A program made the translations under genes and the position numbers. Source: Nocardioides scoriae (lineage in GTDB: Bacteria; Actinomycetota; Actinomycetes; Propionibacteriales; Nocardioidaceae). Taken from it: a DNA stretch of 64,000 bases. This document shows positions 56,642-59,870 of this stretch, piece after piece; position 1 is the stretch's first letter, and each line of letters begins with the position of its first letter. Location of the stretch: NCBI RefSeq assembly GCF_900104965.1, contig NZ_LT629757.1, forward strand, positions 2,418,001 to 2,482,000. Direction: 5' to 3'. The notes under the pieces are model-generated. The model was not told the origin of the DNA. It did no database searches and saw nothing but the letters and a program-made list of their open reading frames with translations.

Positions 56642-57679
56642 ATGCAGCTCTCCGTCCTCGACCTCGTGCCCGTCCGCTCCGACCAGACCTCCGCCGACGC
56701 CGTCGCGGCGGCCCGGGGGCTGGCGCAGGTGGCCGACGCCAGCGGCTACACCCGCTACTGGGTGGCCGAGCACCACAACATGCCGGCCGTCGCGGCCACG
56801 AACCCGCCCGTGGTGATCGCCCTGCTCGCCGCCGCCACCGAGCGGATCCGCGTCGGCTCGGGCGGCGTGATGCTGCCCAACCACGCGCCGCTGGTGGTCG
56901 CCGAGCAGTTCGCGCTGCTCGAGGCCGCCTTCCCCGGGCGCATCGACCTCGGCATCGGCCGCGCCCCTGGCTCCGACCCCGTCACCTCGTGGGCCCTGCG
57001 CCACGGCGCGGGCGGCGTGGAGGAGGACGCGGTCGCGCGGTTCCCGTCGTACGTCGACAACGTGATCGCCATGATGAGCCCCGAGGGCGTGGGCCTCCAG
57101 GTGCAGGGCCGCAATCACCCCCTCACCGCCACTCCGCGCGCGACCTCGGTGCCGCCCGTGTGGCTGCTCGGCAGCTCCGACTACTCCGCCCGGCTCGCCG
57201 CCGAGCGGGGCCTGCCGTACGTCTTCGCCCACCACTTCTCCGGGCACGGGACGGCCGAGGCGATGGACCTCTACCGCTCGCAGTTCCGCCCCTCGGAGCA
57301 CCTCGACCAGCCGCGCACCTTCCTCACCGTCAACGCGGTCGTCGCCCCGACCCGCGAGGAGGCCGAGCGCCTCGTGCTGCCCAACCTGCACTCGATGGTC
57401 GCCCTGCGCACCGGCGGGCAGCTCGCCCCCCAGCGCACCGTCGAGGAGGCCGAGGCCGACCCGCTGCCCGACGCCCACCGCGCCCTGGCCGAGTCGATGC
57501 TCCAGCGCTGGGTCGTCGGCACCCCCGAGGACGCCGCCAAGCAGGTCCGCGAGCTCGCCACGACGTACGACGTCGACGAGGTGATGATCCACCCCGTCGC
57601 CGGCGCCCTCACCGGCACCGACCCCCGCACCGCCCCCGCCCGGGAGGCGACGCTCCGGTTGCTCGCCGAGGCCGTCTGA
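56642..57679 (+). CDS. LLM class (luciferase-like) flavin-dependent oxidoreductase
   Basis: A 345-residue luciferase-fold protein of the YhbW/MsnO8 type: LDLVPVRSDQTSADAVAAAR near the N-terminus, RYWVAEHHNMPAVAATNPPV, GSGGVMLPNHAPLVVAEQFALLEAAFPGRIDLGIGRAPGSD, and VWLLGSSDYSARLAAERGLPYVFAHHF. It should use reduced FMN (or F420) with an unknown substrate. It is transcribed against its neighbours hpt and tilS and is an insertion relative to Mtb order. Its stop lies 6 nt before the left inverted repeat of the cassette. Confidence 0.87.
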   Translation: MQLSVLDLVPVRSDQTSADAVAAARGLAQVADASGYTRYWVAEHHNMPAVAATNPPVVIALLAAATERIRVGSGGVMLPNHAPLVVAEQFALLEAAFPGRIDLGIGRAPGSDPVTSWALRHGAGGVEEDAVARFPSYVDNVIAMMSPEGVGLQVQGRNHPLTATPRATSVPPVWLLGSSDYSARLAAERGLPYVFAHHFSGHGTAEAMDLYRSQFRPSEHLDQPRTFLTVNAVVAPTREEAERLVLPNLHSMVALRTGGQLAPQRTVEEAEADPLPDAHRALAESMLQRWVVGTPEDAAKQVRELATTYDVDEVMIHPVAGALTGTDPRTAPAREATLRLLAEAV

Positions 57680-57684
57680 GCGGT

Positions 57685-57764
57685 GCTGATCACCCGGACG
57701 TCCGGGTAATCAGCTACTGGACGTCTGTTGCAACGGACGTCCAGTAGCCGAAAAGGACGTCAAG
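57685..57764 (+). repeat. Left terminal inverted repeat (about 80 bp)
   Basis: Starts GCTGATCACCCGGACGTCC. It contains a 28-bp palindrome (57686-57713, one mismatched pair) and a 36-bp palindrome (57713-57748) with arms GCTACTGGACGTC and GACGTCCAGTAGC. The second palindrome lies 11 nt after the AbiEi-like stop and could double as its terminator. Confidence 0.8.
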
Positions 57765-58728
57765 CAGGCGGTCGCAGCTGGTGGACCGGCGCTCCCCGCA
57801 GCACCTCGAGGACGTACGCCGCGGTCGCCTCGGGCCGGTGGAGGTCGGCCCAGGTGAGCCGTAGGCACCTCCAGCCGGTGAGCCGTGCGATGCGCTCCTC
57901 GCGCCGCTTCTCGCGCAGCACGGCGTCGACCACGCTCTCGCCGGGACGGCGGTGGCGCAGGTACTTCTCCTTGCCGTCGAACTCGACCCACACCCGTGCC
58001 TCGGGCCAGGCGAAGTCCAGGCGGGCGATCTCGCGGCCGTGCTCGTCGTGGACCGGCCACTGCAGCTGCGGTCGCGGCACCCCGCCTCGGAAGAAGCACA
58101 GGGCGCTGCGTGACTCGCCGACCGACTCCCGCCGGCCGTCGCTGAGCCGGACCGCGAGGTCGGAGACGAGCGTGCCCGGCCACGCGTTCATCCGACGCCG
58201 GCACGCGTCGAGCTCCGTGCGCGTCGTCAGCCGGCGCCGGAGGAAGTCGTCGAGCACGGGGAGCGATCGATCGAGCCCCAGCAGCATCACCAGGTCCATG
58301 GCCGTGCGGGTGGCGCTGGTGAGGGCGACCCCGTCGCTCTCGACGACATCGTCGGCGGCGAGCTCTCCCCGGTGCTGGACCACCCCCGCTGCCGTGCGTC
58401 CGCCGCGCCGGTCGACGCGGGTGACGTGCACCGCTGCGAGGGGCAGCTCCCAGAGCGGACCGTCGTGGAGCACGACGGCGCTCATGTGGGACACCACGAC
58501 CTCGGTGCCGGCCTTGAGCACCACCCCGCGAGCCACCACCGCGTGGCGCTCGCGGGACGTGAGCTCCCTCCACGCTGCCGCCCACGCGTAGGTGCCGGCC
58601 CGGATCCGCACCAGCTCGCCGGAGCGGACGCCCGCGCGCAGGTCACGGTCGTCGCAACCGGCGGCGAGCGCCGCCGACCTCATCAGCAAGCCGTCCGCGT
58701 CCGTCGCTCGTGCCAGTCCTGGGTGCAT
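57760..58728 (-). CDS. AbiEi-like N-terminal domain plus DUF559 (PD-(D/E)XK-like) nuclease domain
   Basis: A 322-residue protein. Residues about 10-150 resemble the type IV AbiEi antitoxin winged helix and its follow-up domain (AALAAGCDDRDLRAGVRSGELVRIRAGTY; SHMSAVVLHDGPLWELPL; VALTSATRTAMDLVML). Residues about 210-315 are a DUF559/Vsr-like domain with GESRSALCFF, ARLDFAWPEARVWVEFDGKEKY (the D and E-x-D candidates) and LTGWRCLRLTWADL. Such pairs are common single genes in actinobacteria with no partner toxin. CAGGGT 6 nt before the ATG may be a leaderless promoter. The gene is wholly enclosed by inverted repeats. Confidence 0.82.
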   Translation of the reverse strand: MHPGLARATDADGLLMRSAALAAGCDDRDLRAGVRSGELVRIRAGTYAWAAAWRELTSRERHAVVARGVVLKAGTEVVVSHMSAVVLHDGPLWELPLAAVHVTRVDRRGGRTAAGVVQHRGELAADDVVESDGVALTSATRTAMDLVMLLGLDRSLPVLDDFLRRRLTTRTELDACRRRMNAWPGTLVSDLAVRLSDGRRESVGESRSALCFFRGGVPRPQLQWPVHDEHGREIARLDFAWPEARVWVEFDGKEKYLRHRRPGESVVDAVLREKRREERIARLTGWRCLRLTWADLHRPEATAAYVLEVLRGAPVHQLRPPA

Positions 58729-58817
58729 GTGCCGACCCTGCGCGATCCGTCGCGAGGCCGCACCCCGCGTCGGCGTACCTGTGGACGACGCCGGACGCGT
58801 TCGTCACACCGGCACCA

Positions 58818-58897
58818 CTGGACGTCCTTCTCGACCACCTGACGGCTGTTGCAACAGACGTCCAGTCACCAATTACCCGGACGTCCGGGTAATCAGC
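58818..58897 (-). repeat. Right terminal inverted repeat (about 80 bp)
   Basis: Reverse complement starts GCTGATTACCCGGACGTCC. It contains the perfect 22-bp palindrome at 58872-58893 and CTGTTGCAACAG at 58846-58857. The outermost bases include the TGA stop codon of tilS. Confidence 0.8.
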
Positions 58898-59870
58898 GCG
58901 GCGCCGCCTCGAACCGGACCACCCCACCCGCACGCACGCCGCGGAGGTGGCCGGGGAGGTCGACCCACTGCTGGCCGTGCCAGCGGGTGACGAGGGCGTC
59001 GAGCTCCTCGAGGTGGACGGTGGCGAGCTCGGCGGGCAGGGCGCCGGCCTCGAGGGCGGCGGAGCGCAGGACGCGCAGCCGGACGGCGGCGTGGAGGTCG
59101 GCGAGGACGGCCGCGGAGAGGCCGTCCTCGAGGCGGGCGGAGGCGAGGGCGGAGGCGCTGACCTCGTCGAGGTACGCCGTGTCGACGCGCAGCTGGTCGG
59201 CCGTGCGAGCCAGGGTGGCCGCGACGCCGGGGCCGAGCTCGTCCTCGAGCAGCGGGAGCACCCGGGTGCGGACGCGGACGCGGGTGAACCGTTCGTCGCT
59301 GTTGTGGGGGTCGGTCCAGGGCTCGAGGCCCTCGACGAGGCAGGCGGTCTCGGTCTGCAGCCGGGTGACGTCGAGCAGGGGGCGGCGGAAGCCGTCGAAG
59401 GAGCGGCGCATGCCGGCCAGCGACCGGGCGCCGGCACCGCGGGCCAGCCCGAGCAGGACGGTCTCGGCCTGGTCGTCGAGGGTGTGCCCGAGCAGCACGA
59501 CGGCGGCGCCGAAGTGGCGGGCCATCTCGCCCAGCACGGAGTAGCGCGCCTCCCGGGCGGCCGCCTCGGGCCCCATCCCCTCGCCCTCGACCGCCACCCG
59601 CGCCGAGACCGTCTCGTCGGCCCCGAGCGCGGCCATCTGCTCCACCACGCGGGTCGCGTGGGCGGCGGAGCCCTCCTGGAGGCCGTGGTCGACGGTGGCG
59701 CCGACGACCCGCAGGGCGCCCCGGCGCGACTCCGCGACCGCCGCGCTCACCAGGGCCAGGGAGTCGGCGCCGCCGGAGCAGGCGACGAGCACAACCGAGT
59801 TGGGGGCGAGGTCGGACAGTGCACGCCGTACGCCGAGGCGCACGGCCGCGACCGCGGGGTGCAGGGCCAC
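58893..59870 (-). CDS. tilS: tRNA(Ile)-lysidine synthase
   Basis: A 325-residue N-type ATP pyrophosphatase with the PP-loop VLVACSGGADSLALVSA (about 28-44), GATVDHGLQEGSA, VVLLGHTLDDQAETVLLGL and RRPLLDVTR. It converts C34 of tRNA-Ile2 to lysidine and is essential. Length is normal for actinobacterial TilS, which lack the extra C-terminal domains. GTG 59870 follows the DUF2342 stop by 13 nt. Its stop codon falls inside the right inverted repeat of the neighbouring cassette, so the original C-terminus may have differed slightly. Confidence 0.94.
   Translation of the reverse strand: MALHPAVAAVRLGVRRALSDLAPNSVVLVACSGGADSLALVSAAVAESRRGALRVVGATVDHGLQEGSAAHATRVVEQMAALGADETVSARVAVEGEGMGPEAAAREARYSVLGEMARHFGAAVVLLGHTLDDQAETVLLGLARGAGARSLAGMRRSFDGFRRPLLDVTRLQTETACLVEGLEPWTDPHNSDERFTRVRVRTRVLPLLEDELGPGVAATLARTADQLRVDTAYLDEVSASALASARLEDGLSAAVLADLHAAVRLRVLRSAALEAGALPAELATVHLEELDALVTRWHGQQWVDLPGHLRGVRAGGVVRFEAAPR

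Follow-up and report, generated by a model that had tools for sequence, protein, structure and literature searches.

Dispersed hairpin-repeat families of Actinobacteria appear often to have their own partner gene, placed between two repeat copies

The window analysed here, a 64-kb stretch of a 4.06-Mb single-contig genome (G000), was found to carry a single gene enclosed by a pair of inverted repeats at 57680-57764 and 58818-58902. The two arms are 85 nt long and 82% complementary, with 1053 nt between them. The gene (57760-58728, minus strand) encodes a 322 aa AbiEi-like protein with a C-terminal nuclease-like domain, and the reading frames disclosed no second gene inside the cassette in the window or at the same site in two related genomes, G008 and G009. 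To the left, a gene on the plus strand (56642-57679), which we take to encode an LLM-class flavin oxidoreductase, has its stop codon 5 nt from the repeat unit. To the right, the minus-strand gene at 58893-59870, presumably tilS as the original prediction also had it, ends within the repeat unit on that side. The stop codons of these convergent neighbours, both of which we assume to be housekeeping-type genes, are 1213 bp apart. The inverted repeats are above chance, as 296 sliding spans of the window scored 17 or less on a strict flank score; the six loci of this protein family in the genome, that of the window included, all scored 18 or more. The repeats and the lone nuclease-like gene between them, both put forward in the original prediction, were thus confirmed, and this is not an ordinary two-gene toxin-antitoxin pair. 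hpt and tilS are indeed apart, as had been stated, and between them lies not the cassette alone but also one more gene, the LLM-class oxidoreductase.

Residues 8-179 of the protein matched the AbiEi models of PADLOC (E 1.1e-16), and the AbiEi-like domain is therefore well supported; the same models matched 68 of 69 aligned proteins. Pfam AbiEi_4 matched 54 of the 69 at E<=0.01 and gave 22.2 bits with the window protein, under its curated cut-off of 25. In the C-terminal part of about 140 residues, E205, D238, E249, D251, G252, K255, E273 and R276 are invariant in the 69 aligned proteins, and the acidic residues together with the lysine are read by us, on assumption, as the PD-(D/E)XK motif pattern. 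The DUF559 label proposed for this part proved weak, since the window protein had no match to that Pfam family at E<=1 and PF04480 matched 2 of the 69 proteins at E<=0.01. REase_MTES_1575 was matched weakly (E 0.034) by one of eight paralogs and orthologs, and the ZorE2 nuclease and mREase_II models of PADLOC matched eight and two of the 69 proteins at E<=0.01, the window protein itself matching AbiEi only. A search of solved structures with the protein returned nothing significant (best E 0.31), and none of the 69 proteins matched an NCBIfam model. Judging from the motif and the weak profile matches, the C-terminal domain is a putative nuclease of PD-(D/E)XK type, akin to DUF559 and Vsr. The Y1_Tnp / RAYT / IS200 transposase domain (PF01797) is absent from the protein, and no match to it was found in the window genome at E<=0.001.

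Searching the genome with one arm disclosed 28 units of the same kind, two at the window locus and 26 elsewhere; the latter are all without the gene, and none coincides with any of the six loci at which the protein family is encoded. A gap-free alignment of the 28 copies spans 83 columns, defining a unit of about 83 bp composed of a palindrome (P1), a hairpin (P2) and a half-site (P3); the nested internal palindromes described for the arms are present. The left unit (57685-57767, plus strand) consists of P1 at 57685-57714, P2 at 57711-57750, with its core at 57715-57746 and an extended stem that overlaps the end of P1, and P3 at 57755-57767, which overlaps the end of the gene. The right unit (58815-58897, minus strand) is inverted, with P1 at 58868-58897, including the tilS stop codon (58893-58895), P2 at 58832-58871 and P3 at 58815-58827. 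P1 is a 30-bp palindrome with the invariant centre CCCGGACGTCCGGG; it starts with GCTGAT, replaced by ACTGAT in 2 of the 28 copies. The centre of P2 is TTGCAA (TCGCAA in one copy), and P3 resembles the 3' arm of P2, with 228 of 280 positions identical over the 28 copies. The window arms are 82% identical to each other over the 83 columns, the family mean being 84%, and each has 18 closer relatives among the other units, the best at 94%. The arms thus resemble other members at least as much as they resemble each other, unlike the private ends of a transposon; they had been taken for the terminal repeats of a mobile cassette and are instead two members of a dispersed REP-like family.

The hairpin is reflected in the covariation of the copies. 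Over the extended P2 stem (columns 27-66) there were 46 double-change cells versus 22.6 in shuffles, cells which are not independent events because the copies are related. The covariation score was 0.268 against 0.187 after shuffling, with none of 500 shuffles as high, and slid controls gave 0.066 or less. Pairing of P3 with the 5' arm of P2 was considered and discarded, for it gave no excess covariation (264 of 500 shuffles reached the score and 334 of 500 the percentage paired), and P3 is accordingly read as a half-site copy. Over the P1 and P2 pairs 62 G-T versus 32 A-C wobble cells were counted, an asymmetry which hints at selection on the strand running from P1 to P3; in the outer extension of P2 alone the ratio was 13 to 14, and here too the copies are related. 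No Rfam family was matched by the units at E<=1.

With respect to the orientation of the unit, the nearest upstream reading frame points towards P1 in 20 of the 28 units, and in 9 of the 28 a reading frame ends 8 nt or less from the start of P1. These frames were called simply, by length and GC3, and the oxidoreductase before the left window unit was missed. P1 of the tilS-side unit supplies the stop codon of tilS both in the window genome and in G009, while in G008 the stop is just ahead of this P1. Elsewhere in the window genome, the same repeat array was seen in register at the start of the single contig (G000:C1:1-396) and at 4051813-4052221, some 6.7 kb short of its end; this would point to a circular assembly whose overlap had not been trimmed.

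The window genome contains six paralogs of the protein at six different places. All six are between inverted repeat copies, and the repeats differ from paralog to paralog. The family was found in all 23 genomes of the genus that are at least 90% complete (74 places) and, in a phylum-wide draw, in 117 of 296 genomes, own genome included. The flanks were examined at 72 of the 74 genus places (one at a contig edge and one second piece of a split gene being left out), at 80 loci from named genomes, which are the best 80 of 539 confirmed stretches, and at 29 loci from the phylum-wide draw; four duplicate loci and three with less than 250 bp of flank were excluded from strict scoring. Matching inverted flanks, with a strict score of 18 or more, were found at 119 of 174 usable loci (genus 55/72, named genomes 51/73, phylum-wide 13/29), leaving 55 loci below this threshold; shared ancestry inflates all of these counts. 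None of 470 control spans reached the threshold, namely 296 sliding spans of the window, 150 neighbouring spans and 24 tilS spans, the latter set at fixed offsets, a few of them not exactly at gene ends. Among shuffled pairs of left and right flanks 12 of 1728 passed, presumably since some loci have their repeat family in common. An earlier scoring scheme, in which 50 of 77 loci from named genomes and 13 of 29 from the phylum-wide draw reached 36 or more, was set aside; in it, sliding controls of the window reached 46 (99th percentile 40). The stricter scheme was used for the counts because long GC-rich coding alignments also score in the earlier one. There is thus a recurrent gene-repeat partnership across Actinobacteria, overlooked by the original prediction, and dispersed hairpin-repeat families of this phylum appear often to have a partner gene of their own between two repeat copies. 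Internal stops occurred in 12 of the 55 loci below the threshold versus 7 of 122 that comprise the 119 above it and the 3 with short flanks, in reading frames that are rough, their starts being set from tblastn extents; this excess is a hint that the gene decays once the repeats are lost.

The design of the units varies. Many are of the P1-P2-P3 type with private sequences, others are tandem arrays, and some are single long hairpins (L247, L252). The paralog L060 has arrays with a 32-bp period, of 5.5 and 4.7 copies on its two sides. All four repeat families that were searched for in their own genomes proved to be dispersed, namely that of the window, those of the paralogs L058 and L060, and L226 from a different genus. 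The unit of L058 occurs at at least 9 other sites and the tandem-type array of L060 at at least about 12; both are lower bounds, 40 of 59 and 40 of 80 candidates having been scored. The L226 unit occurs at 16 other sites. All site counts are our own grouping of the matches listed. A period of 32 bp corresponds to roughly three helical turns, the spacing to be expected if proteins bind along one face of the DNA. Inverted arrays of this period were also seen to enclose an ordinary gene in L280 (1543-1655 and 2606-2750) and in L281 (1602-1682 and 2577-2657), the enclosed genes being, by eye, dehydrogenase-like and membrane-protein-like. A reading of these genes as cargo was rejected, and no such claim is made, because in L280 each array starts beside the stop codon of a neighbouring gene.

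Protein and repeat have diverged together. Of 108 loci whose reading frame is uninterrupted and whose repeats scored 36 or more in the earlier scheme, 103 were retained, and over 5162 non-syntenic pairs the similarity of the proteins correlated with that of their repeats (Spearman 0.37; no value as high among 500 permutations). For the N-terminal part the coefficient was 0.370, versus 0.341 for the C-terminal part, a small difference on which no weight is placed. Among the candidates scored, which were part of the total in genomes with more than 15 of them (for example 15 of 29, and 15 of 27 in G005), the window unit turned up in 3 of 58 genomes, that of the window among them. These are G000, G008 and G009, the three genomes of the genus with a close ortholog (71-100% identity); in the other 20 genus genomes the best identity to the window protein is 50%. 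At the same site in G008 and G009 the arrangement is kept; the units on either side of the gene are lineage-specific variants, and versions of the unit are also present elsewhere in both genomes. With this conservation and with the 26 further units of the window genome, two of the conditions that the original prediction had named as refuting were not borne out. The clearest such changes are in G009, where the flanking units have CCCC/GGGG in P1 and P2 and P3 are altered together; dispersed copies of this variant occur in G009 beside copies of the window type.

Close relatives of the gene (at least 71% identity) were found in 3 of 24 genus genomes, each time at the tilS end and nowhere else, and the multiple genomic sites that a mobile cassette had led one to look for were not borne out. 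The gap between the tilS and oxidoreductase stop codons is 1213 bp in G000, 1220 bp in G008 and 1215 bp in G009, all with the cassette. In G017, G012 and G002, which are without it, the stop codons overlap and the gap is -8, -8 and -4 bp; such junctions without the cassette had been foreseen. Gaps of 49, 53, 110 and 539 bp were measured in G011, G005, G020 and G015, and in the remaining 14 of the 24 no oxidoreductase was detected next to tilS within the sequence examined. By eye, no target duplication was seen at the junctions, the cassette-free genomes being too diverged for a firm test, and no transposition event was seen. In G017 and G012 (L258, L259) the convergent stop codons overlap as TCAGCTGA; the window units start with GCTGAT and often end with ATCAGC, a likeness to this overlap that may be due to chance.

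The tilS junction of G020 (L269) holds a solo unit of another family, which matches the flanks of a paralog in the same genome, L089 (score 22; next 13). In G019 a tandem array behind tilS matches the flanks of genus paralogs, best those of L129 of G011 (43) and then those of its own L125 (26). The tilS end has therefore been occupied more than once, by different families. Sixteen unit loci of G008 and G009, partial units included and one of them not recovered by the P1 pattern, were compared with those of the window genome: 5 share their position with a unit there, four by both flanks and one by one flank, so that some units are old, and 11 match none. A further solo unit in G009 (L074, 2254-2350), by eye like that of another paralog (GGGCAGTTTCCCCGG type), is just behind a dehydrogenase-like stop codon and about 200 bp from a window-family unit.

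The closest known arrangement is that of REPs and RAYTs. According to PMC2817692, RAYT genes are always between two inverted REPs, and, by analogy, the gene and the repeats are taken here as one system. REP families with RAYTs are described in PMC3733652, together with CGTC repeats that are reported to be without a dedicated transposase. The common features are one gene between two inverted palindromic repeats and scattered further copies. RAYTs, however, carry the PF01797 domain, whereas an AbiEi part and a PD-(D/E)XK-type domain are predicted here. Likewise, the known repeats are tagged hairpins of 20-40 bp and the present unit is a P1-P2-P3 structure of about 83 bp; it has no GTAG/CGTC tag at the foot of such a hairpin, and the GTAG present behind P2 in some copies only is within the covarying stem. 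The CGTC-tagged REPs, assigned to five phyla in PMC3733652, Actinobacteria not among them, are also dispersed hairpin repeats, but here a cognate gene was found. With the AbiE type IV toxin-antitoxin systems the protein shares its N-terminal 180 residues or so, and known AbiEi antitoxins bind pairs of 23-bp inverted repeats, two of them being described as not binding each other's sites (PMC7319586). The present system differs in its extra C-terminal nuclease-like domain and in repeats that are on both sides and dispersed, and no adjacent AbiEii (DUF1814) toxin gene was found among the reading frames of the cassette in the window, G008 or G009. Vsr-like or PD-(D/E)XK homing endonucleases resemble it in having a nuclease-like gene and cassette-free junctions in relatives; the present system is set apart from them by its small palindromes, which are dispersed, and by its several paralogs, each with repeats of its own. 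Unlike the closely matching private ends of a classical insertion sequence, the arms here are 82% alike, and either of them resembles solo copies at least as much as it does its partner.

It seems rather probable to us that the locus represents a REP/RAYT-like partnership in which an unrelated AbiEi-PD-(D/E)XK-type protein takes the place of the HUH transposase. The AbiEi-type DNA-binding part would recognise its own hairpin-forming palindromic unit, and the PD-(D/E)XK-type domain would probably nick or cut at or beside the hairpin. Repair or replication would then give rise to new copies of the unit elsewhere, in many cases directly after a stop codon, and the protein may drive the spread of the units. 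The gene would persist because it is between two inverted units, and the other dispersed units would be non-autonomous copies.

As the chief alternative, the protein would regulate genes by binding DNA, or organise the chromosome, and its many functional sites would drift with its specificity and not move today; we hold this to be unlikely, though it deserves serious weight. Co-divergence could also arise if the units were merely binding sites of such a regulator, AbiEi antitoxins do bind inverted repeats (PMC7319586), the five units at shared positions in G008 and G009 are old, and the upstream reading frame points towards P1 in 20 of 28 units. Against a regulator speak the invariant nuclease-like residues, the 11 of 16 unit loci that match no unit locus of the window genome, and the unit of another family, matching a paralog of the same genome, at the tilS junction of G020; moreover, the gene is between two inverted units as RAYTs are, and not beside an operator at its promoter alone. 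A homing-like selfish gene, whose nuclease cuts cassette-free chromosomes and which is itself copied in whole by repair, the units being targets or remnants, would agree with the clean junctions of G017, G012 and G002 (overlaps of 8, 8 and 4 bp) and with the gene being at the same site in three genomes. It is nevertheless improbable, because the repeats are scattered far more widely than the genes, the six paralogs are at six places with different repeats, and homing itself leaves the solo copies of about 83 bp unexplained.

Still less probable is a defence or toxin-antitoxin gene, that is an AbiEi relative directed against foreign DNA or acting together with a toxin, the repeats serving as terminators or operators. 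The AbiEi match at residues 8-179 speaks for it, as do the ZorE2 and mREase_II matches of 8 and 2 of the 69 proteins at E<=0.01; against it are the missing second gene in the window, G008 and G009, the match of the window protein to AbiEi only in PADLOC, and neighbours that are taken to be of the housekeeping type. Hardly credible, finally, is a chance flanking of the gene by ordinary terminators or by miniature elements of an unrelated transposase. The units do form hairpins, with a reading frame ending 8 nt or less from P1 in 9 of 28, yet flanking repeats occur at 119 of 174 loci and in 0 of 470 control spans, and the repeat sequence tracks the enclosed protein; as for miniature elements, no Y1_Tnp gene was found in the window genome, in a search for transposases of the Y1 type.

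To our knowledge, the only enzyme so far connected with dispersed palindromes in bacteria is the RAYT, and families without one are not known to have any. Among the matches listed in open-access full text, no AbiEi or DUF559 protein with such palindromic repeats was found. The gene-repeat pairing looks new, though it would work like REP/RAYT, because no repeat-mobilising enzyme family that is known or was found fits it. As to the broader proposal, that AbiEi-PD-(D/E)XK proteins have co-diverged with private dispersed palindromes and also create and spread them, as a second, RAYT-independent REP system, our judgement is evenly poised. If this is true, a PD-(D/E)XK enzyme would be a mobiliser of bacterial palindromic repeats, and a widespread actinobacterial family, now filed as AbiEi or as of unknown function, could be assigned a definite role that is open to testing. 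The 103 loci provide about a hundred candidate protein-DNA pairs from which the reading of targets by AbiEi could be learned, and, again if the proposal is true, the origin of many repeats found between the genes of high-GC genomes would be explained.
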